Source: a virus. From it: DNA of 22,732 nt. Location: the IMG/VR virus record IMGVR_UViG_3300042879_002840, positions 1 to 22,732 of that record. One strand, given 5' to 3'. The position numbers and the translations under genes are program-made. The stretch's first letter is position 1. The number at the start of each line of letters is the position of its first letter. Positions 1 to 10,326 of the stretch are shown in pieces. The notes below the pieces were generated by a model. That model saw only the letters and a program-made list of their open reading frames with translations, searched no databases and was not told where the DNA came from.

Positions 1-129
1 AGAGACTACTTCTTTTGCGAGCATCAGTACTTCTTCTTTAGTGAAGCTTCTGATACTTCTTTGATCGTCATCTGCCCAGAGCTGCATCTTGTACTCAAGC
101 TCTTCAATGCTTAGTGCTTTATCGATCAT
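1..129 (-). CDS. Hypothetical protein, 3' end outside window
   Basis: An open frame of 43 codons runs off the left edge, starting at the ATG read from 129 to 127 (MIDKALSIEELEYKMQLWAD...). Its start overlaps the stop of the upstream gene in an ATGA junction, which argues for translational coupling and fixes the start. The visible part is acidic and probably helical, with no motif I recognise. It is the last visible member of the leftward early operon. Function unknown; that it is coding rests on the coupling and the open frame. Confidence 0.55.
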   Translation of the reverse strand, partial: MIDKALSIEELEYKMQLWADDDQRSIRSFTKEEVLMLAKEVVS

Positions 130-491
130 CGTGTCTCTCCAATGTAATGCGCTAGAGTGGATTCACCTAGCTTACGAGCGCGTTCTTCAGTAGGCGCAAA
201 GCCAAACTCAGCGATGACATTTCGGTCATCGAGCACTGTCCAGCACCATGAAGGTTCAGCGGACTCTTCACGCATAACAGTAAGTGCGTACGCGGGCTTT
301 ACATATCGACGTGCAACGTTGTCGATTGTGTGTAGCCATCTTGCTGCTTCGTAAACTGTCTTGCGTGGGTACAGCGATCGGTACTCCCAGATGACTCGTG
401 CAAGTGTCTTGCGATCGAGCATGTGACTGTTCTGAGGGCCAGACTGCCAAGCATCTTTACGCATATATGGCCAGAGTTGACGCCAGTGCAT
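126..491 (-). CDS. Hypothetical early protein, 121 aa
   Basis: The ATG at 491-489 follows a leader ending TTTAGGAGATAACACAA, the same ribosome-binding box used by several other early genes here, so the start is well supported. The protein is basic and tryptophan-rich at the N-terminus (WRQLWPYMRKDAW). Its C-terminal half (about residues 65-121) has alternating strand and helix character and ends in a helix like those of small DUF domains. I do not recognise the family. It lies directly downstream of a hammerhead ribozyme (515-567), so its mRNA would begin with the ribozyme stem I hairpin after cleavage. It is followed by an ATGA-coupled gene. Confidence 0.75.
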   Translation of the reverse strand: MHWRQLWPYMRKDAWQSGPQNSHMLDRKTLARVIWEYRSLYPRKTVYEAARWLHTIDNVARRYVKPAYALTVMREESAEPSWCWTVLDDRNVIAEFGFAPTEERARKLGESTLAHYIGETR

Positions 492-514
492 TTGTGTTAT
501 CTCCTAAAGGTGAA

Positions 515-567
515 GGACTCATCAGTGGCAGCATAACTGCCAGACCGGCGGGCGACCGGTTTCGTCC
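515..567 (-). ncRNA. Hammerhead ribozyme, type II (copy D)
   Basis: Read on the minus strand: stem II 5' strand GGAC (567-564), core GAAA (563-560), stem III CCGG/CCGG (559-556 with 548-545, loop TCGCCCG), then GTC with predicted cleavage after C543. Stem I follows: TGGCAG/CTGCCA (542-537 with 531-526, loop TTATG), then core CTGATGA (525-519) and stem II 3' strand GTCC (518-515). All core bases of the hammerhead consensus are present and stem II is the open helix, which defines type II. The first G pair overlaps the TAG stop of the upstream gene. No TTGACA promoter is nested here, unlike three sister copies. The ATG of the next gene is 24 bases downstream of the ribozyme. Confidence 0.9.
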
Positions 568-905
568 TACTCAGCGGCTTGTGTAAGCAAGTACCCAAGT
601 GCTTCGAGTCGACCGTCGTGATGCGACCTCTTAGCATCGTTGCCACGGCCTGACCAAGTATCGTCGGCACCGAAGTGTGTAACGGCAGCAGCTATGAGGA
701 TAACAGCTTTAGTTTGGTCCTCACGTGATCCAAGAATCTTCAAGAACTGCCTGTAAGTATGCAAGCAGCCTTGCTGGTGTGCGAGTTGGTTGGATAGGTC
801 TGACAGACGAAAGGCATCGATGGTGCCAGCAAGTTCGTCGTGCAACTTGCTCTTGAGGTGTTCGATGCGATCATTCGTCTCAGCGATTCTTCGTTCAACG
901 TTCAT
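567..905 (-). CDS. Hypothetical early protein, 112 aa, coiled-coil N-terminus
   Basis: The ATG at 905-903 follows TTTAGGAGATAACACAG, the shared early ribosome-binding box. Residues 1-55 (RRIAETNDRIEHLKSKLHDEL...) look like a helical hairpin or coiled coil. The C-terminal half is rich in Ala, Gly and His and contains a hydrophobic patch (AVILIAAAVTHFG). No family recognised. The gene is bracketed by ribozymes at 930-987 (upstream) and 515-567 (downstream; its first base pair uses the G of this gene's TAG stop). Cleavage at both would release a 416-nt RNA carrying only this cistron. Confidence 0.75.
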   Translation of the reverse strand: MNVERRIAETNDRIEHLKSKLHDELAGTIDAFRLSDLSNQLAHQQGCLHTYRQFLKILGSREDQTKAVILIAAAVTHFGADDTWSGRGNDAKRSHHDGRLEALGYLLTQAAE

Positions 906-929
906 CTGTGTTATCTCCTAAAGGTGAAT

Positions 930-987
930 GGACTCGTCAGTAGCAGCACCAACTGCCAGACAGGCTAGATTGTAGCCTGTTTCGTCC
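930..987 (-). ncRNA. Hammerhead ribozyme, type II (copy E)
   Basis: Minus-strand order: GGAC (987-984), GAAA (983-980), stem III CAGGCTA/TAGCCTG (979-973 with 967-961, loop CAATC), GTC with cleavage predicted after C959. Then stem I TGGCAG/CTGCTA (958-953 with 946-941, one G-U wobble, loop TTGGTG), CTGACGA (940-934) and GTCC (933-930). It is the mirror partner of the plus-strand copy at 2764-2820 and sits in the same relative place, after the first gene of its operon. The wobble in stem I and the different stem III sequence support structure rather than mere sequence copying. Confidence 0.93.
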
Positions 988-997
988 TGTGTGTCAA
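969..997 (-). promoter_or_regulatory. Sigma-70-like promoter nested in ribozyme E
   Basis: TTGACA (997-992), a 17-base spacer and TACAAT (974-969) on the minus strand. The -35 starts one base after the TAG stop of the preceding gene, and the -10 overlaps the distal end and loop of ribozyme stem III. A start about 7 bases after the -10 would fall near 963-961, two to four bases before the predicted cleavage site at 959/958. Read by eye; no start site is measured. Confidence 0.75.
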
Positions 998-1249
998 CTA
1001 CGAATTGCGAATGTCTTCGGATCGGTTGTGCCAGATCTTTTCGAGACGTCGGGCCTGAGCGACAACCTGTGCAGGTGTTGGGCAGCGGCCAGTGCTGCTT
1101 AGTGGTTCAGCGATGTAGTGATCGACTAGCTCTTCGTCAGTGAACGTGTTGGTGTGCATTGAATCGTATGCACCAACAATCTTATCGTTACGAACAGCTG
1201 CAATGCATTTCTTTACGCAATCAAGGTCCAAGAGGGTGGCTACGGTCAT
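998..1249 (-). CDS. Hypothetical early protein, first gene of leftward operon, 83 aa
   Basis: The frame stays open upstream to a TTG at 1297, but that would lie inside the promoter and leader. The ATG at 1249-1247 is preceded by TTGGAGATAACACAA, the common early ribosome-binding box, so I use it. The product (MTVATLLDLDCVKKCIAAV...) is small and mixed helical, with no motif I recognise. It is the leftward counterpart of the gene at 2525-2749: both begin just after mirror-image promoters, and their upstream leaders even spell the same MSSIDT-like residues. Function unknown; early takeover or regulation is only inferred from position. Confidence 0.7.
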   Translation of the reverse strand: MTVATLLDLDCVKKCIAAVRNDKIVGAYDSMHTNTFTDEELVDHYIAEPLSSTGRCPTPAQVVAQARRLEKIWHNRSEDIRNS

Positions 1250-1286
1250 TTGTGTTATCTCCAAGTTAGGAACTGTGTTCGTGTCA

Positions 1287-1358
1287 ATCGACGACAATAG
1301 AATTATCGACTAGATGATGCATCGTGTCTATAGGAACTAGATGTTTTGCGAAAAGTTT
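1287..1358. repeat. Left arm of inverted repeat, promoter and leader segment
   Basis: This segment is closely similar to the reverse complement of 2405-2475. Shared blocks include ATCGACGACAAT, GAATTATCGACTAGATGATG, GTGTCTA and GATGTTTTGCGAAAA. Each arm carries one outward promoter. The pair frames the repeat region between the two early operons. Confidence 0.85.
1302..1330 (-). promoter_or_regulatory. Leftward early promoter
   Basis: TAGACA (1330-1325), a 17-base spacer and GATAAT (1307-1302) on the minus strand, with a start expected near 1295. The rightward promoter at 2432-2460 has the same two hexamers, the same spacer length and a nearly identical spacer, which is the main support. The -10 overlaps the sequence GTCGATAATTC, related to the operator-like motif of this region. 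Confidence 0.75.
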
Positions 1359-1360
1359 TT

Positions 1361-1424
1361 CGACCGTTATATTAGCACCTCTTTCATCGTTACGACCGTT
1401 ATATTAGCACCTCTTTCATCGTTT
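1361..1424. repeat. Two tandem 32-bp repeats
   Basis: The segment beginning CGACCGTTATATTAGCACC occurs at 1361-1392 and again at 1393-1424 with no differences apparent by eye. A third, degenerate partial copy (TCGGATGTCGTATTAGC) follows near 1424-1440. The repeats lie just upstream of the leftward promoter -35 and resemble half of the CGA-N8-TCG motif seen further right, so they may be protein-binding sites. Confidence 0.85.
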
Positions 1425-1446
1425 CGGATGTCGTATTAGCGCATTA

Positions 1447-1998
1447 GATGCATTTTCAAATTCTTTTGAGAAAGTGTTCATTTCGTATTGACATCATTTT
1501 GATGCATGTTGCATCGCTTTAAAGACGACGCACAGCAATGCACTTTGTGAGTGCTGATCGATCAGTCTATCGACTTTGTGTGAAGAGTGCATTTTGGTGC
1601 GTCCATTTTAAGAACTTTGGCGCATCGTTAGACGCATTTTCAAATTCTTTTGAGAAAGTGTTCATTTCGTATTGACATCCATTTCGTGGCAGTTAGAGAT
1701 CTTTAAAGACGACGCACAGGAATGCACTTTGTGAGAGTTGGTCGATCAATATATCGACTTTGTGTGAAGAGTGCATTTTGGTGCGTCCATTTTAAGAACT
1801 CCGATGCATCGTTAGACGCATTTTCAAATTCTTTTGAGAAAGTGTTCATTTCGTATTGACAGCATTTAAACGCATATTTGTGGCTTTAAAGACGACGCAC
1901 AGCAATGCACTTTCACGCCGAGGTACGACTATTGTATCGTAGTGAAAATTCTCTTCGTTTTGATGCCATTTACGAAATGAGTCATATACGCCATCAAA
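1447..1998. repeat. Three direct repeats, about 184 bp each
   Basis: Units start at about 1447, 1631 and 1815. Each opens with a nearly invariant block of about 46 bp (GCATTTTCAAATTC ... TTCGTATTGACA), then about 25 variable bases, then CTTTAAAGACGACGCACAG followed by AATGCACTTT. Units 1 and 2 also share the later block AGAGTGCATTTTGGTGCGTCC, which forms an inverted pair with AATGCACT about 50 bases earlier. A degenerate fourth unit continues to about 2185 (AATGCAC at 1537, 1721, 1904, 2090). The TTGACA in each unit has no good -10 at 16-18 bases. Candidates are a replication origin with iterons or an operator array. Confidence 0.85.
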
Positions 1999-2360
1999 AT
2001 GCATCGAAAGAGCAACTTTTCACATATCGGAGAGAATTTGACGAAAATTCTTAGAGCGGGCATTTTTGTCATCAAACTATGTGCATTCAAATGCACTTTC
2101 ACACCGCGGTACGACTATTGTATCGAACCACTTTTTGAGTGCATTTTGAAGCCTTTGCAAAACAGGCTAGCTACAGTGCACCAAAATGCACAATCGTGCG
2201 GTACGACTAGAATATCGATCAAGCGGCTTGAAAGCGTCTAAATGCATTCCTAGAACCTACAATCGGCTTCCAATTAGGCTGCCAAAGACCACATGCGTAT
2301 TTTAAGAGACCTGGAAGCCATCAAAATGCATTTGGTACCTGGAGTCGATAAATAATATCG
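1559..2360. promoter_or_regulatory. Series of palindromic operator-like sites, CGA-N8-TCG
   Basis: CGATCAGTCTATCG (1559-1572), CGATCAATATATCG (1743-1756), CGACTATTGTATCG (1926-1939 and 2112-2125), CGACTAGAATATCG (2204-2217) and a 15-base variant CGATAAATAATATCG (2346-2360). Their spacing (184, 183, 186, then 92 and 142) follows the repeat period. Half-like forms occur at 1361 and 1393. The dyad symmetry and AT-rich centre are typical of helix-turn-helix repressor or initiator sites. No gene for such a protein was recognised in the window. From about 1331 to 2431 I see no credible gene. Confidence 0.6.
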
Positions 2361-2404
2361 GTCGTGTTTTGAGAGCGTTAAAACGCATAACAAACTTTCA
2401 TAAA

Positions 2405-2475
2405 ATTTTTTCGCAAAACATCAAATACCTGTAGACACAACACATCATCTAGTCGATAATTCCATTGTCGTCGAT
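2405..2475. repeat. Right arm of inverted repeat, promoter and leader segment
   Basis: Reverse-complement partner of 1287-1358, with shared blocks TTTTGCGAAAA, CATCATCTAGTCGATAATTC and ATTGTCGTCGAT (given in either orientation). It makes the control region an almost symmetrical divergent switch. Confidence 0.85.
2432..2460 (+). promoter_or_regulatory. Rightward early promoter
   Basis: TAGACA (2432-2437), a 17-base spacer and GATAAT (2455-2460), with a start expected near 2467. It is the twin of the leftward promoter at 1302-1330. The first gene it would serve starts at 2525. Confidence 0.75.
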
Positions 2476-2524
2476 CGACACGACTGATCGACCTGCACAG
2501 TTCTTAAACTCGGAGATAACCCTG

Positions 2525-2749
2525 ATGAAAAAGCCGACTCTAACCCACTGCGTAACATTGAAGTTCAAGATCGCATTACTTGCAACATTCTTGGACACAA
2601 TGGCTGACACGTTTGCTTACTCAACTTACAAGATGACTGTCGACGCGACTACGACAATCATCTCCGTTAAAATCACCTGTGATAGTAGCCTAGCTGAAAT
2701 CTTGCTTGAAGAGTTGGAAGGCTTCAATTGCACCGTTACTTCCAAATGA
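2525..2749 (+). CDS. Hypothetical early protein, first gene of rightward operon, 74 aa
   Basis: An upstream TTG at 2465 is in frame but lies at the predicted transcription start. The ATG at 2525 is preceded by CTCGGAGATAACCCTG, matching the early ribosome-binding pattern, and is preferred. The product (MKKPTLTHCVTLKFK...) has a strand-rich centre (TTTIISVKITC) followed by an acidic helix (SSLAEILLEELEG). A similar order of features occurs in the products at 2844 and 3706, hinting at a small paralogous family. Function unknown. Confidence 0.7.
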   Translation: MKKPTLTHCVTLKFKIALLATFLDTMADTFAYSTYKMTVDATTTIISVKITCDSSLAEILLEELEGFNCTVTSK

Positions 2750-2753
2750 CCTG

Positions 2754-2782
2754 TTGACACACAGGACGAAACAGGTTAAATT
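2754..2782 (+). promoter_or_regulatory. Sigma-70-like promoter nested in ribozyme A
   Basis: TTGACA (2754-2759), a 17-base spacer and TAAATT (2777-2782). The -10 lies in the palindromic stem III hairpin CAGGTTAAATTTAACCTG. A start about 7 bases downstream falls near 2788-2790, just before the predicted cleavage site 2791/2792. The -10 is weaker than in copy B. Confidence 0.65.
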
Positions 2783-2820
2783 TAACCTGTCTGGCAGTTG
2801 GTGCTGCCACTGACGAGTCC
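2764..2820 (+). ncRNA. Hammerhead ribozyme, type II (copy A)
   Basis: GGAC (2764-2767), GAAA (2768-2771), stem III CAGGTTAAATTTAACCTG (2772-2789, fully self-complementary), GTC with cleavage predicted after C2791, stem I TGGCAG/CTGCCA (2792-2797 with 2804-2809, loop TTGGTG), CTGACGA (2810-2816), GTCC (2817-2820) closing stem II with GGAC. It sits between two genes, and 23 bases lie between its end and the next ATG. The tail TTCACCTTTAGGAGATAACACAA is also shared with copy D. Confidence 0.93.
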
Positions 2821-2843
2821 TTCACCTTTAGGAGATAACACAA

Positions 2844-3059
2844 ATGCACTTTGACTTTAGGATAGGCCCAATCGCTAACATTGATGCAGCGAAAGTTCAT
2901 GCTCAGAAGTTTAAAGATGACGATCGTCTTCAAGAACTCGAAGTCACAGATCGGTTTATTCTGTGTTCTTGCACGGACGACACGATGAATGAACTTGTCG
3001 ATGAATTGCTTCGGGATCGCAAAGTTGGTTTAGGTTCTGTTACTGTACAAGATGCTTAA
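2844..3059 (+). CDS. Hypothetical early protein, 71 aa
   Basis: The ATG at 2844 follows TTTAGGAGATAACACAA, the standard early ribosome-binding box. The acidic product (MHFDFRIGPIANIDAAKV...) has a helix near residues 12-30, a strand (DRFILCSCTDD) and an acidic helix (MNELVDELLRD). No family recognised; it is weakly similar in pattern to the products at 2525 and 3706. The gene lies between ribozymes A and B, whose cleavage would release a 313-nt RNA carrying only this cistron. Confidence 0.72.
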   Translation: MHFDFRIGPIANIDAAKVHAQKFKDDDRLQELEVTDRFILCSCTDDTMNELVDELLRDRKVGLGSVTVQDA

Positions 3060-3066
3060 TCGCCTA

Positions 3067-3095
3067 TTGACACACAGGACGAAACAGAGTATAAC
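3067..3095 (+). promoter_or_regulatory. Sigma-70-like promoter nested in ribozyme B
   Basis: TTGACA (3067-3072), a 17-base spacer and TATAAC (3090-3095). The -10 covers the loop of stem III (CAGAGTA-TAAC-TACTCTG). The start is expected near 3101-3103, directly before the predicted cleavage site 3104/3105. The -35 begins seven bases after the upstream TAA stop. Confidence 0.78.
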
Positions 3096-3133
3096 TACTC
3101 TGTCTGGCAGTTGGTGCTGCCACTGATGAGTCC
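3077..3133 (+). ncRNA. Hammerhead ribozyme, type II (copy B)
   Basis: GGAC (3077-3080), GAAA (3081-3084), stem III CAGAGTA/TACTCTG (3085-3091 with 3096-3102), GTC with cleavage predicted after C3104, stem I TGGCAG/CTGCCA (3105-3110 with 3117-3122), CTGATGA (3123-3129), GTCC (3130-3133). Compared with copy A, stem III has changed on both sides while pairing is kept. A run of six T follows directly, but without an adjacent hairpin it is not a convincing terminator. Confidence 0.93.
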
Positions 3134-3168
3134 GTTTTTTCCACTGTTCCTTTTAGGAGTACACTGTT

Positions 3169-3591
3169 ATGTCGACCGCGATTGCACCAAAGAAACCCGT
3201 CCCACCACCTTCCGCTGTAGGTGCACCTTCCGCTGGCAAGTCCGACAAGCCTGCCAAAGTCAAGAAGATCGACTTCCCTGGCTTGTATGATTCGTCTGGC
3301 AATTACGAAAAGCTGACCGCACTGCCCGTTGGCTTCGATGCCAAGGCGCACAAGCCGCTTCGCAAGAAAGACTTCAAAGAAGAACCTCTGTTCCTCGAGT
3401 ACCAAGCCACCTTGCTTGATGCCAAGGCCGCAAGTCTTCGATCGCAAGCTGAAAAGCTCCGCACCGTTGGCTCGACCGCTTCGTCTGCCAAGGCCAAGAC
3501 CCTTGTCAAGATGCAAGCACGTATGGCCGAACTCATGGCTGCTCTCAAAGCCGAGGGCATGGATGTCGACGCACTGCTTGCCAGCAAGTAG
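3169..3591 (+). CDS. Hypothetical Pro/Ala/Lys-rich protein with C-terminal coiled coil, 140 aa
   Basis: The ATG at 3169 follows TTTTAGGAGTACACTGTT. Residues 1-35 form a flexible Pro, Ala and Lys-rich tail. A central block (FPGLYDSSGNYEKL...) resembles a short conserved phage motif I cannot name. About residues 80-135 are a long Ala/Leu/Lys helix (KMQARMAELMAALKAEGMDVDALLASK is its end). The high net charge would fit a nucleic-acid or structural partner, but this is inference. Codons look more biased (CTT, AAG, GCC) than in neighbouring early genes, suggesting strong expression. It lies between ribozymes B and C; the released RNA would be 519 nt. Confidence 0.8.
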   Translation: MSTAIAPKKPVPPPSAVGAPSAGKSDKPAKVKKIDFPGLYDSSGNYEKLTALPVGFDAKAHKPLRKKDFKEEPLFLEYQATLLDAKAASLRSQAEKLRTVGSTASSAKAKTLVKMQARMAELMAALKAEGMDVDALLASK

Positions 3592-3593
3592 TA

Positions 3594-3652
3594 GGACGAA
3601 ACCGCTACACGCCCATAGCGGTCTGACAGTCGAAGCTGTCACTGACGAGTCC
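3594..3652 (+). ncRNA. Hammerhead ribozyme, type II (copy C)
   Basis: GGAC (3594-3597), GAAA (3598-3601), stem III CCGCTA/TAGCGG (3602-3607 with 3616-3621), GTC with cleavage predicted after C3623, stem I TGACAG/CTGTCA (3624-3629 with 3636-3641, loop TCGAAG), CTGACGA (3642-3648), GTCC (3649-3652). Both stems I and III differ from the other copies with compensating changes, the best internal proof of the fold. It has no TTGACA upstream; instead a TATAAT (3657-3662) follows it with only a poor -35, so promoter and ribozyme are arranged differently here. Confidence 0.93.
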
Positions 3653-3705
3653 CGGGTATAATCACTGGTGTTTCATTCACTAGCACAACCCACAGGAGCA
3701 TTAGC

Positions 3706-3882
3706 ATGAGCCATCCGGTTCAAACAACTTTCAATGATGTTGACGTTGCCAACCTCGACACCGCATCGATCTTCGCCGCTGGCGGGTTCGTTCGTTTCGA
3801 CAGTGACACGCAAGTCACCGTCATTTGCACCTCTGACTCGGAAGAAACGATTCGTAAAGTTATCCTCAACACAGAGGACTAA
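3706..3882 (+). CDS. Hypothetical small protein, 58 aa
   Basis: Short frame from the ATG at 3706 to the TAA at 3880-3882, preceded by CACAGGAGCATTAGC, a good ribosome-binding site. The product begins MSHPVQTTFNDVDVANLDT and ends with a strand (TQVTVICTSD) followed by a short helix (SEETIRKVILNTED). That C-terminal pattern resembles the products at 2525 and 2844. It is the first gene after ribozyme C and heads the tightly packed run of genes that follows. No function recognised. Confidence 0.7.
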   Translation: MSHPVQTTFNDVDVANLDTASIFAAGGFVRFDSDTQVTVICTSDSEETIRKVILNTED

Positions 3883-3900
3883 GCACTTAGGAGATTAGGG

Positions 3901-4215
3901 ATGACCCCTACCGAATATCACGACGAAGAACGCCGCCTCCTCGCACTCATACGGGCACTAGAAGCTGACATAGCTAACCCCGTAACTCTTCAAGAGCGTA
4001 TCGCTCGCGACGAGGCGGCCATCTTGGCGCTGCAACACGGCATCGCCGCTGCTAAAGAGCGCCAAGCACAGTTGCCTGAGATCTTAGAGTCTACTCGGGC
4101 ACGTCTTAAAGATCACCGTGCTAAGAAGCCTAGCACGAGCGCTAAGATCGAACGTTTACTCAAGCTCAAGGAGATGATGAATGAGCTGCTTGCAGAGATC
4201 GATACGAATAGCTGA
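3901..4215 (+). CDS. Hypothetical coiled-coil protein, 104 aa
   Basis: The ATG at 3901 follows CTTAGGAGATTAGGG. The protein is almost entirely charged heptad-like helix (about residues 5-100; for example ERRLLALIRALEADI and IERLLKLKEMMNELLAEI), with a Lys/Pro/Ser break near residues 79-84. This predicts a dimeric or hairpin coiled coil. No family recognised. Its end overlaps the next frame by 35 bases. Confidence 0.75.
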   Translation: MTPTEYHDEERRLLALIRALEADIANPVTLQERIARDEAAILALQHGIAAAKERQAQLPEILESTRARLKDHRAKKPSTSAKIERLLKLKEMMNELLAEIDTNS

Positions 4216-4450
4216 GATCTTCTCTGATCTCGTACGCGGTGACAGGCCCAGGCCTGCGATCCGTGTCTCCTTTGAGGTTGGCACGCATCACATCGGGGCA
4301 ACTTGGATTGAGCTTCAGGTGCCCTTAGCCATCAAGTACGGCCAGTTATACGACCACAAGATTGCAGAGTTGGTAGAAGCGTTTTACCAACTGCCGTTTC
4401 ATACCTTAGGTTTCCCGGAGTTTACACATGGCACTTCCGAAATGGGCTGA
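4181..4450 (+). CDS. Hypothetical protein, 89 aa
   Basis: The start at 4181 has AAGGAG seven bases upstream, although this stretch also encodes the LKEMMNE end of the previous gene. The body (RPAIRVSFEVGTHHIGATWIELQVPLAIKYGQ...) reads as a strand-rich domain ending with a helix (LVEAFYQLPFH). No family recognised. It overlaps the genes on both sides by 35 and 23 bases, in keeping with this compact operon. Confidence 0.6.
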   Translation: MSCLQRSIRIAEIFSDLVRGDRPRPAIRVSFEVGTHHIGATWIELQVPLAIKYGQLYDHKIAELVEAFYQLPFHTLGFPEFTHGTSEMG

Positions 4451-4625
4451 GGCTCAACTTGACACGCAAGAGAAAGAGATCGAGCGACTAAAGCTTAGGG
4501 TCAAAAGCCTCACGGCTGACCTCAAGCAACGCGACGACATCATTGATGAACTGCACGCCGAAGTATCCGAGCTGAAGCGCAGTGAGTCTACGCTGAAGCA
4601 AGAAATCGCGGTCATCTCACAATGA
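4428..4625 (+). CDS. Small coiled-coil protein, 65 aa
   Basis: The ATG at 4428 follows CCCGGAGTTTACAC. Residues 8-62 are a continuous coiled coil (DTQEKEIERLKLRVKSL... DELHAEVSELKRSESTLKQEI), like a leucine-zipper dimer. Its stop overlaps the next start in an ATGA junction. Function unknown. Confidence 0.72.
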   Translation: MALPKWAEAQLDTQEKEIERLKLRVKSLTADLKQRDDIIDELHAEVSELKRSESTLKQEIAVISQ

Positions 4626-5035
4626 ATGTGTTCGTACCCTTCACGACGTTTGATCGTTGTGCTGCCTTCCTTGACAACTCGCGGCTTAACAAGCAGCTTG
4701 CGGAAGGCGCGCAGATCATGCGTCAGATAGACGTCTGGCCGCACGGGGCTTGGTCGCATCATCCTGCAATCATGTCTTGGGTTGGTCACCTTGATGCGCT
4801 CTTCGCGTACTTGCACGCAGTTGAGCTCGAGCGCCACGTACGCGGGTTTCGTACCCATCGTGAGTGGCTCAACATCCTCGACAAGTTCGTCGAGTTTGAA
4901 GTTGGTATGCCTTTCGACTATCCTTGGTGGTGGGGTGATGAAGCTGTTCATCGCTCGCACTATGACAACCTATTACTCAAGTTCGCGGGTAGCCCGCATG
5001 GAGATTACGTATGGCCTGTAAGTATTTCGAAGTAA
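4622..5035 (+). CDS. Pyrimidine-dimer DNA glycosylase-like protein (MSMEG_6728 type)
   Basis: 137 aa, coupled to the upstream gene by ATGA. The sequence follows the pattern of the MSMEG_6728/pyrimidine-dimer-excision-like family: an N-terminal MNVFVPFTTFDRCAAFLD, then SRLNKQLAEGAQIMR, a central HHPAIMSWVGH, and a C-terminal WWGDEAVHRSHYDNLLLK with a final WPVSISK. Members are annotated by similarity to T4 endonuclease V-like base-excision enzymes that act on UV lesions; activity has not been shown for most of them. A DNA repair role fits the nearby ligase and nuclease. The family assignment is from recalled motifs. Confidence 0.72.
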   Translation: MNVFVPFTTFDRCAAFLDNSRLNKQLAEGAQIMRQIDVWPHGAWSHHPAIMSWVGHLDALFAYLHAVELERHVRGFRTHREWLNILDKFVEFEVGMPFDYPWWWGDEAVHRSHYDNLLLKFAGSPHGDYVWPVSISK

Positions 5036-5322
5036 GAGACTGTGGCACTAACATCCCTGTCGTCGCAGTGGAACTAGAGTGCCACCCAATTGCAGCACGC
5101 GCTGGGTTTCGCCCAGGTGTTAACAAGCACGTGTTGGTGACGGCGCTGTCTTCGCTCAAGACCTATCATTGTGGTAGCTTTATCGAAGGCCGCACGATGC
5201 GCGTCGCCTGCGATCACATAGCTGCAAACTTCAGAGATCTGCAGTGCGGGTCTGTCGTCGATGTTGAGTTCATTCTTGGTGAGACGAAAGAACCAAAGGT
5301 GGCAGAATGCGTCCAACGATGA
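5011..5322 (+). CDS. Hypothetical protein, 103 aa
   Basis: The ATG at 5011 lies in the end of the previous gene and has ATGGAGATTACGT upstream. The product (MACKYFEVRDCGTNIPVVAVEL...) is strand-rich with several Cys and His residues, and a helix near residues 65-75. I recognise no family. The stop overlaps an ATG of the ligase frame (ATGA at 5319-5322). Position suggests a DNA metabolism accessory, but this is only context. Confidence 0.65.
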   Translation: MACKYFEVRDCGTNIPVVAVELECHPIAARAGFRPGVNKHVLVTALSSLKTYHCGSFIEGRTMRVACDHIAANFRDLQCGSVVDVEFILGETKEPKVAECVQR

Positions 5323-6110
5323 AAGCATATAAGCCCGGTGAACCAGCTAACTTTGCTCACGTGAAGCTCGATGGTCATTACCTTGAGGTTCATCAAGCTG
5401 TGAGTGGCCTTGTCACGTGCACTACGCGTCACGGTACTAAGCTTGATCTCAGGTGGGTGCCTACTCTTAAGGAAGCATGGCACATGCCTGGAGAAACTAC
5501 AGTGCTAGGCGAGTTATGGTACCCAGGGCAACCGGCTTCTTACATCAAGACAGCGATAAAGAATCGGATTACTGGCTTAAGGTTCTCTTGCTTCGCTGTT
5601 AGCACGTGTGCGACATTTGTCGAGTACAATGATTGGTGTCTTGCGTATGGCTTCGATGCAGTCGGGTTTTACATGCGCGAGTACTTGCCTTTAAGATACT
5701 GTCTTGGTCGTCTTGACGTGAATAACTTGCCGGCCACTGAACACGAAGGTTTCGTCATGAAGGACGAGCTCTGGGTTAACTGGCGTAAGCACAAGCCCTT
5801 CAAGACGATCGATCTTATCGTCGATGAAGTGACTGAAGGACGCGGGCAATTCGTAGGCTTGGTTGGGTCGCTTGTATGCAAGACAACTGAAGGCCATGTG
5901 ATAGCGAACGTCTCTGGGTTCACCTATGACGAACGGGTAGAACTAAGTGAAGCTGATGTTGGCCGCGTCGTTGAGGTGAAGTATCAATATGTCGGTGCGC
6001 AAGGTCGCTTGCGTCACCCGACGTTTGTTCGCTTCAGGGACGACAAGCTGCCAGGCGAGTGTACTCTTGATCAAGATGAGGATTTGCGATGCAAGTACAG
6101 CTCCAAGTAA
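5307..6110 (+). CDS. ATP-dependent DNA ligase, minimal form
   Basis: 267 aa. Nucleotidyltransferase motif I is VKLDGHY with the adenylated Lys at residue 20, motif III is VLGELW, motif IV is EGFVMK, motif V is NWRKHKPFKTIDLIV, and the C-terminus forms an OB-fold with a VGLVGSLVCK strand and a GRLRHPTFVRFRDDK end. The family seals nicks in duplex DNA using ATP; this size is close to the smallest viral ligases (adenylation plus OB domains only). The start may be 5307 (AAAGGTGG upstream) or the ATG at 5319, which forms an ATGA junction with the previous stop; motif I is intact either way. It likely works with the neighbouring repair and replication genes. Confidence 0.88.
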   Translation: MRPTMKAYKPGEPANFAHVKLDGHYLEVHQAVSGLVTCTTRHGTKLDLRWVPTLKEAWHMPGETTVLGELWYPGQPASYIKTAIKNRITGLRFSCFAVSTCATFVEYNDWCLAYGFDAVGFYMREYLPLRYCLGRLDVNNLPATEHEGFVMKDELWVNWRKHKPFKTIDLIVDEVTEGRGQFVGLVGSLVCKTTEGHVIANVSGFTYDERVELSEADVGRVVEVKYQYVGAQGRLRHPTFVRFRDDKLPGECTLDQDEDLRCKYSSK

Positions 6111-6310: not shown

Positions 6311-6956
6311 GCACGACTTCTGGCACAGGAATCGATGGTGTGCGCCGAAGTTCTTTGTGTGGGAAGATGGTTACACTCATTATTCATATGTGAGTGGTTA
6401 TCACCCATCACGCATCGGCCAGATGGTGTGGCAGGCTCTCGAACGACTCTGGGGCGACCCTGAGACGAAGGTGAAGACTGACTCGTATCTTAAGTACATG
6501 AAGGATAAGATGCCAGCCGATGAACTCGAGCTCGTCGCATCGAATCTTATCAGCCTTCATGCTGCGAACGAAGTTGTCGGTGACTGCACGTTCGAGAATA
6601 TTCTCATAAGCGATGGCCGCGTGTACATAATTGACCCTGGTCATCCACGCGGACTTAAGTGTCGAGAACTCGATCTTGCTAAGATCCTGCAGTCGATGCG
6701 AGGCTGGGAGAACGTCAAGCGACCCAAGGTCTTTGCACCGAGGGAACCCGATCACCTGGGTATGTACACCCGGGAGACTGTTGCACTTTACATTACTCAC
6801 TTATACAGGTTACTTAAGCATGAGCACCCAAAGCAATGCCACGAATGGGCAAGATCCGAAATACAACTCGCGAAAGAAAACTTACTTCATCGACGTGGAT
6901 GGGACCCTGTTGATCAAGCGAGAGACTGGCGGCCAGCACTGGCAGGACCTCGTTAA
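6276..6956 (+). CDS. Phosphotransferase/kinase-fold protein (sugar kinase-like)
   Basis: The frame is open from 6162, but its first part lies opposite the convincing upstream gene, so I place the start at the TTG 6276 (AAAGGA upstream); the true start is uncertain. The core carries a protein-kinase-like phosphotransferase signature: VVGDCTFENILI (Asp and Asn of the catalytic loop, with Val where His is usual), then VYIIDPG (metal-binding Asp) and ELDLAKILQS. Families with this pattern phosphorylate small molecules and often sit in capsule or sugar-nucleotide clusters. It is followed by a HAD phosphatase, a nucleotidyltransferase and a glycosyltransferase, suggesting the first step of sugar activation. 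Substrate unknown. Confidence 0.68.
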   Translation: MSGKAKDPEKIRHDFWHRNRWCAPKFFVWEDGYTHYSYVSGYHPSRIGQMVWQALERLWGDPETKVKTDSYLKYMKDKMPADELELVASNLISLHAANEVVGDCTFENILISDGRVYIIDPGHPRGLKCRELDLAKILQSMRGWENVKRPKVFAPREPDHLGMYTRETVALYITHLYRLLKHEHPKQCHEWARSEIQLAKENLLHRRGWDPVDQARDWRPALAGPR

Positions 6957-7257
6957 TGCAGTCCCAGGCATGCTTGCGTGGGTCAACAGCCTTGAGAAAG
7001 ATGGCCACGTGATCGTGTTGACGACTGCAAGGAAGGAGAGCCACCGCGCTGAGACTGAACGAACACTTAAGCTCAATGGCTTCTGCTGGGACCACTTGAT
7101 CATGGGCTTAACGAACGGCGAGCGTGTCGTCGTCAACGATGGCCCGTGCGCTTCAATTCAAGTTAAGACGAATGGCGGGTTAACCGGCGCCGCTGTCGTC
7201 GTTAACGATGGCCCGTGCTCTGTGGTTGAACTTAGGAAGAATCGAGGATTGCAATGA
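6820..7257 (+). CDS. HAD-superfamily phosphatase
   Basis: 145 aa from the ATG at 6820; no later start precedes motif I. Motif I is FIDVDGT (nucleophile Asp25, acid/base Asp27), motif II is VLTTARKE (Thr68/69), and a conserved MGLTNGERVVVND supplies the C-terminal acidic residue. This resembles small HAD phosphatases of capsule and heptose-type pathways. The frame overlaps the kinase by 137 bases out of phase, which is long for a phage. Residues 103-110 and 126-133 are the same VVVNDGPC and the DNA is duplicated 69 bases apart (7126-7149 and 7195-7218), so the last motif has been copied. The next gene is ATGA-coupled. Confidence 0.8.
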   Translation: MSTQSNATNGQDPKYNSRKKTYFIDVDGTLLIKRETGGQHWQDLVNAVPGMLAWVNSLEKDGHVIVLTTARKESHRAETERTLKLNGFCWDHLIMGLTNGERVVVNDGPCASIQVKTNGGLTGAAVVVNDGPCSVVELRKNRGLQ

Positions 7258-9683: not shown

Positions 9684-9887
9684 ATGATGGAACGGCGTTA
9701 CAGACGACAAGAAGCTAGAGTTGCAGCGCTACCAAGTGATAGGCGTTGCCCATGTTGTGAAAAGACCATTCTTAAAAGTAGAAGTTGGGTGATAAAAGAT
9801 GGATGGATCTCATGCAGACGATGCTACTACAAAAGCTTTCGAATATGCGATGCAGAACGAGAAGAGGATACGGAGCATGCTCCTTAA
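9684..9887 (+). CDS. Small zinc-ribbon protein, 67 aa
   Basis: The open frame begins at a TTG (9651), but the ATG pair at 9684/9687 with TTGGGAGACG upstream is better. After a basic N-terminus (MMERRYRRQEARVAAL) come CPCC (Cys22 and Cys25) and CRRC (Cys44 and Cys47), a typical four-cysteine zinc ribbon. Such small proteins often bind nucleic acid or RNA polymerase. It precedes, and overlaps by 89 bases, a sigma-like factor, so a role in transcription control is possible but not shown. Confidence 0.68.
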   Translation: MMERRYRRQEARVAALPSDRRCPCCEKTILKSRSWVIKDGWISCRRCYYKSFRICDAEREEDTEHAP

Positions 9888-10326
9888 GAGTGCGAGAGGC
9901 GATCGTCAACTGGCAGACGAAATGTTTAGTGACGTCGCACTTGAGAGGTTGCCCAGGCTCTTTGAACTTTATGATGCAAGTAGGCCCATCGATAACTACA
10001 TGCTTCATAACATACGCTGGTATGCGTTTAAGTATATGAACAAGAGGCGGCACTATGCCGAGCTTGAGCATACTGGCATAAGAGACAAGCACGGGTTCAC
10101 TGATGCACTCGACTCGCTCAATGAACTCGATCGCTACTTAATCGAAGCTCATGTGCTGTATGGCATGACCTTTACTGAAATCTCAAAGGATCTTAACTGG
10201 CCCGTGCACTTAGTGAGCAAGGCTGTTAAGATCGCGAAAGATCGCGTGGCAGAGTGCTACGATGAGAACCGTGATTGGGTGTTCGTTAAACGCGTTATAA
10301 GGATCCTATGCAATGCAGTGGAATGA
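9799..10326 (+). CDS. RNA polymerase sigma-70-family factor (ECF-like)
   Basis: 175 aa. About residues 12-78 match a region 2 pattern (AFEYAMQNEKRIRSMLL ... DEMFSDVALERL ... PIDNYMLHNIRWYAFKYMNKRR). About residues 105-155 match region 4 with a helix-turn-helix (LDSLNELDRYLIEAHVLYG, MTFTEISKDLNWPVHLVSKAV). The linker is short, as in ECF factors. It should direct host RNA polymerase to phage promoters, most likely late ones, since the packaging and head genes follow. Targets are unknown; the TTGGACAG repeats just upstream are candidates. The ribosome-binding site is weak, so translation may depend on the overlapping upstream gene. Confidence 0.8.
   Translation: MDGSHADDATTKAFEYAMQNEKRIRSMLLKSARGDRQLADEMFSDVALERLPRLFELYDASRPIDNYMLHNIRWYAFKYMNKRRHYAELEHTGIRDKHGFTDALDSLNELDRYLIEAHVLYGMTFTEISKDLNWPVHLVSKAVKIAKDRVAECYDENRDWVFVKRVIRILCNAVE

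Follow-up and report, generated by a model that had tools for sequence, protein, structure and literature searches.

The DNA considered here is the complete IMG/VR record IMGVR_UViG_3300042879_002840, 22,732 bases long (hereafter the window), in which terminase large subunit and portal genes identify a phage. The leaders of small genes in its divergent early region harbor five elements that are well supported, on the grounds of sequence and predicted fold, as type II hammerhead ribozymes (HHRs). These ribozymes probably cut the early transcripts, and three of the copies would double as early promoters whose −10 element lies in the loop of stem III. Evidence on conservation comes from three phages, namely the window and its relatives G001 and G003, to which G005 and G058 add the left arm only.

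Five type II hammerhead ribozymes

Two copies are found on the minus strand, m1 (515–567) and m2 (930–987), and three on the plus strand, p1 (2764–2820), p2 (3077–3133) and p3 (3594–3652). A sequence pattern, a structural finder and an independent covariance model agree on these positions, at which the initial annotation had already placed five type II hammerheads. The pattern GGACGAAA-N-GTC-N-CTGAYGAGTCC matches five times in the window versus none in 100 dinucleotide shuffles, while the structural finder returns the identical five copies and none besides, with a total of 1 match in 50 mononucleotide shuffles. The covariance model, built from 17 IMG/VR copies with the window excluded, matches all five copies with E-values between 1e-11 and 1e-14 (m1 1e-14, m2 2.4e-11, p1 1.3e-11, p2 2.2e-11, p3 2e-11). 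A sixth hammerhead is detected in the window neither by the structural finder nor by this model.

The minimum free energy fold is a three-way junction in all five copies. In these folds as well as in the covariance model, stems I and III are closed by loops and stem II is open, which is the type II topology. The core elements CUGANGA and GAAA and the NUH cleavage triplet are invariant in 5/5 copies, and cleavage is predicted after C543 (m1), C959 (m2), C2791 (p1), C3104 (p2) and C3623 (p3), the same sites that had been named before. The covariation recorded in the initial annotation is likewise present: the five stem III sequences all differ and are all still paired (CCGG..CCGG in m1), and stem I changes from TGGCAG/CTGCCA to TGACAG/CTGTCA in p3, with one G-U pair in m2. 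Among 90 IMG/VR motifs taken by the core pattern alone, without any pairing requirement, stems I and III are paired at their variable positions in 88–100% of cases versus 42–58% with shuffled partners.

The Rfam 15 hammerhead models, which the initial annotation had proposed as a check, find nothing in the window at the gathering score, a database cut-off and not a biological feature. With relaxed limits a single, spurious permuted type I match appears, stretching over two copies. Since the model made from other phage copies matches all five elements, the negative outcome reflects a limit of the Rfam models. The IMG/VR copies were collected by the core pattern because Rfam gave nothing usable.

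The contact between loop I and the tail 3′ of stem II comprises four Watson-Crick pairs in p1 and m2 (GGUG/CACC) and is found in G003 as AGUG/CACU, with one covarying pair. A conserved pseudoknot as a general trait of the GGAC/GTCC set of IMG/VR copies is not supported, with 16 copies having at least 4 Watson-Crick pairs versus 16.7 with shuffled tails. Pairing of the freed GUCC with the Shine-Dalgarno sequence after cleavage was also dropped, as it is possible just where U follows GUCC (m1 and p1).

Predicted early promoters nested in three ribozymes

A sigma-70-type promoter motif with predicted activity is nested in m2, p1 and p2. Within positions 1–5000, both strands and at least 10/12 hexamer matches considered, exactly five promoters are present, compared with about 0.4 per strand in shuffles. 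Two of them lie outside the HHRs and flank the control region, the left one at 1302–1330 on the minus strand (CCTA-TAGACA, GATAAT) and the right one at 2432–2460 on the plus strand (CCTG-TAGACA, GATAAT). The remaining three are located one each within m2 (969–997, minus; TTGACA at 997–992 and TACAAT at 974–969, 11/12, with GTAG in place of CCTR), p1 (2754–2782, plus; TTGACA and TAAATT, 10/12, CCTG before the −35) and p2 (3067–3095, plus; TTGACA and TATAAC, 11/12, CCTA before the −35). Every spacer measures 17 bp.

In m2, p1 and p2 the TTGACA stands 4 nt before the stem II GGAC, with CACA between them, and the spacer passes through GGACGAAAC and the catalytic GAAA. The −10 is formed by the last TA of the 5′ arm of stem III together with four loop bases (TA+AATT in p1, TA+CAAT in m2, TA+TAAC in p2). 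Except for m2, the HHR promoters share the −35 context CCTR-TWKACA with the non-HHR early promoters of the window and its relatives, including G003. Both p2 and p3 have orthologs in G001 and G003, and at p2 the promoter is conserved as TTTACA-17-TATAAC in G001 and as TTGACA-17-TAGAAT in G003, stem III being still paired. In the latter the loop is changed from TAAC to GAAT and the −10 is kept; its cleavage triplet is GUA. Neither m1 nor p3 contains a promoter, and in these copies and their relatives, which have no −35, the stem III loops are GC-rich, UUCG-like or otherwise unlike a −10.

A nested promoter occurs in 7/210 distinct HHRs, five of the seven within this clade, and one of the two outside came from a TTGACA-based search and is thus biased. 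Promoter overlap as a general trait of phage HHRs was rejected, the TTGACA-like peak before GGAC being mostly a TGA stop followed by CA. None of 118 composite-like sequences among the matches listed in the scan has an HHR.

Several early genes of G003 carry the same type of promoter and no HHR, followed by a hairpin (GTCGAT..ATCGAC) and a Shine-Dalgarno sequence, with the start codon 54–58 nt after the −10. The left arm of this phage (L165, 3800–8000) holds a series of small genes with near-identical promoter-plus-hairpin leaders, mostly without a ribozyme; the ribozyme leaders can naturally be compared with these.

Position in the early region

All five HHRs lie in the gap that separates a stop codon from the Shine-Dalgarno sequence of the next small early gene. 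Measured from the cleavage site to the start codon, the predicted leaders amount to 51 nt for m1, 53 nt for m2, 52 nt for p1, 64 nt for p2 and 82 nt for p3. This arrangement recurs in the IMG/VR copies, 156 of 178 having a Shine-Dalgarno sequence and start codon at most 120 nt downstream (28% for random sites, 12% for the opposite strand) and the majority having the stop of an open reading frame at most 15 nt upstream.

On the left arm, all on the minus strand, the gene at 998–1252 (ATG at 1249) lies upstream of m2 and that at 567–905 (112 amino acids) between m2 and m1, its TAG stop sharing the first G of the m1 ribozyme; the gene downstream of m1 (126–491, 121 amino acids) has no family match. 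The right arm, on the plus strand, has genes upstream of p1 (2525–2749, 74 amino acids), between p1 and p2 (2844–3059, 71 amino acids), between p2 and p3 (3169–3591, 140 amino acids, 81–82% identical to its G001 and G003 homologs) and downstream of p3 (3706–3882, 58 amino acids).

Between the arms lies a divergent control region (1279–2483) with an 82-nt inverted repeat at both ends (1279–1360 and 2402–2483) and 184-bp direct repeats in between. From this region the HHRs point outward on both arms, with three plus- and two minus-strand copies in the window, two and two in G001 and two and one in G003, whereas the other multi-copy IMG/VR contigs are one-stranded in 16/16 cases. The two-armed layout is real and looks unusual. 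Multi-copy IMG/VR contigs carry 2–8 copies each, often spaced by a few hundred to some 1,500 nt, and the one-gene spacing of the HHRs is seen again in many IMG/VR phages. The 184-bp repeats (1444–1878) each contain TATTGACA and AATGCACTTT / GTGCATTTT-type motifs, and similar repeats are present in G001 and G003.

A 49-nt inverted match of 98% between m1 and p1 spans everything from stem I to the start codon inclusive, and the repeat comparison further reveals a 76-nt repeat at 86% and inverted matches between m2 and p1. The left-arm gene before m2 has an 86% identical homolog in G003, where it sits on the right arm directly before the ribozyme at the p3 position. Judged by these matches, the units made up of HHR and leader behave like modules.

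The window apparently covers just part of a larger genome of a tailed phage, its close relatives having 38–45 kb. The ends of G001, a 45-kb contig, overlap by about 177 nt, which suggests a circular or complete genome. A search with the protein encoded downstream of p2 gave just two relatives, both already known; a DNA search of the INPHARED phages gave no relatives of the window, and a search of genome contigs for the host gave a distant terminase match and nothing more.

Proposed mechanism and alternative explanations

In the reading preferred here, a transcript from an upstream early promoter would fold and cut itself at GUC. The upstream mRNA product would end in the stem III hairpin with a 2′,3′-cyclic phosphate, and the downstream product would begin with a 5′-OH and carry first the stem I hairpin, then about 50–80 nt that include the Shine-Dalgarno sequence. 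The divergent polycistronic early transcripts would in this way be turned into mRNAs of gene length whose ends are protected by hairpins and whose leaders are uniform. The DNA of m2, p1 and p2 would in addition serve as the standard early promoter of the phage, with the −35 upstream of the ribozyme and the −10 in the stem III loop. The usual distance from the −10 to the transcription start is 7–8 nt, and initiation from the nested promoter is predicted at or near the G of GUC, 2–3 nt 5′ of the cleaved bond, so that the 5′ ends made by initiation and by cleavage would almost coincide. A message started there would carry the same 5′ stem I hairpin and could not cleave, because the upstream half of the ribozyme is missing. 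A 5′-terminal hairpin seems to be the common feature of ribozyme and non-ribozyme leaders, since the G003 promoter leaders without a ribozyme also carry one, and it would fit a protection from decay entering at the 5′ end. That a single DNA stretch works as a promoter and at the same time encodes a self-cleaving ribozyme, with initiation and read-through cleavage giving the same 5′ end within about 3 nt, is a proposition for which we see the chances as even.

Several points weigh against the combination of processing and nested promoters. The −10 of p1 (TAAATT) scores only 4/6, two of the five window copies and most copies of the relatives have no promoter, and the contact between loop I and the 3′ tail, presumed to accelerate cleavage, is weak in both m1 and p3. 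By their sequence m2, p1 and p2 are paralogous, and the three nested promoters are for this reason not independent evidence. The promoters are putative ones, scored against sigma-70-type hexamers. Lastly, it is from the observed ribozyme anatomy, covariation, position between stop codon and Shine-Dalgarno sequence, promoter motif and conservation at p2 that we infer cleavage in vivo, promoter activity, the start site, stabilisation and a benefit to the phage.

The HHRs could instead constitute an ordinary phage cluster that processes read-through transcripts, the likeness to promoters being a coincidence or inherited without function by duplication. HHR clusters are common in the IMG/VR phages and have been described (PMC3088659), duplication links the three copies that bear a promoter, as seen from the 76-nt repeat and the inverted matches between m2 and p1, and TGACA-GGAC upstream of other HHRs results merely from a TGA stop abutting the ribozyme. 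However, the CCTR-TTGACA context equals that of the non-HHR early promoters of this phage, with spacers of 17 bp throughout, G003 keeps the −10 despite its altered loop, and the copies without a −35 have loops of the kinds described above, none of them a −10. We regard this explanation as unlikely, albeit one to be taken seriously.

Two further accounts concern the nature of the elements themselves. That the HHR-leader units are mainly recombination joints, whose near-identical stretches let early gene cassettes move between or along the arms, would agree with the inverted match between m1 and p1 and with the gene before m2 having its counterpart on the opposite arm of G003. Recombination alone demands neither an invariant core nor a stem III that varies yet pairs, and the strict order of stop codon, HHR and Shine-Dalgarno sequence is also found in unrelated phages; we consider this account improbable. 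Regulatory hairpins or protein-binding sites such as operators might resemble hammerheads, and stem III, −10 included, could be an inverted repeat of the operator kind located at a promoter. An operator, however, would conserve sequence and not pairing alone, whereas here the five copies, like many copies from unrelated phages, keep every catalytic core position while their stems are free to vary, which renders this idea very improbable indeed.

Comparison with known systems

Processing of early transcripts by self-cleaving leaders, as preferred here, has a protein-dependent parallel in phage T7, where RNase III cuts the early polycistronic RNA between genes and leaves hairpin-ended mRNAs. In both cases the early RNA is cut intergenically, but T7 needs a host protein, whereas the RNA of the window would cut itself.

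Natural type II hammerheads were discovered by Perreault et al. in 2011 (PMC3088659). That report describes multiple copies flanking single genes or short blocks of genes in prophages, demonstrates cleavage in vitro for three tandem arrangements and in E. coli for one, and proposes that long phage transcripts are processed into mRNAs of gene length; a 2017 review repeats this account of clustering and mRNA processing (PMC6155905). The initial annotation had taken the serial intergenic use in a phage to be undescribed, which is contradicted by that report and by the IMG/VR phages. Its novelty claim fails because clusters, cleavage and the processing idea were published in 2011, while its type II assignment and two-armed layout are borne out; the nested promoters had been missed. 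The prophage clusters are like the window in ribozyme topology, core, several copies beside single small genes and the proposed mRNA processing. They differ in that both arms of the divergent early region carry copies in the window, of which three overlap a promoter, an overlap of a kind not mentioned for the prophage clusters in the available text. What goes beyond the published clusters is the outward, two-armed orientation and the promoters nested in three copies.

In RiboJ insulators a hammerhead gives mRNAs from different starts one 5′ untranslated region and more stability (PMC7536230). RiboJ and the engineered insulators have in common with the window a hammerhead between promoter and ribosome site as well as a single 5′ end with a 5′-OH and a hairpin. 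RiboJ sits after its promoter and is cut from the transcript of that promoter, whereas the window promoter lies inside the ribozyme and its own transcript would remain uncut. The dual element may, as part of the same evenly poised proposition, be nature's version of such an engineered insulator, one whose promoter lies within the ribozyme.

Neighboring genes

Window positions 6631–7257 encode a phosphatase of the HAD type that is similar to the phosphatase half of polynucleotide kinase (Pfam PF03767, phrog_415), and an ATP-dependent DNA ligase-like gene is located nearby (5307–6110). Enzymes healing 3′-phosphate or cyclic-phosphate ends would be of interest beside self-cleaving RNAs. A sigma-factor-like protein (9799–10326; Sigma70 region 4, phrog_1740) is a candidate for later phage transcription. 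A member of the Pyrimidine dimer DNA glycosylase family (Pyr_excise) is found among the early genes (4622–5035).

Implications

The function of prokaryotic hammerheads has been called an open question (PMC6155905). The window offers a compact system with five sites, three with and two without a promoter, and with relatives for comparison. If promoter and ribozyme share the same DNA and set one 5′ end, this would speak against a role in splicing or circular RNA and for one in giving each early gene a defined leader headed by a hairpin.

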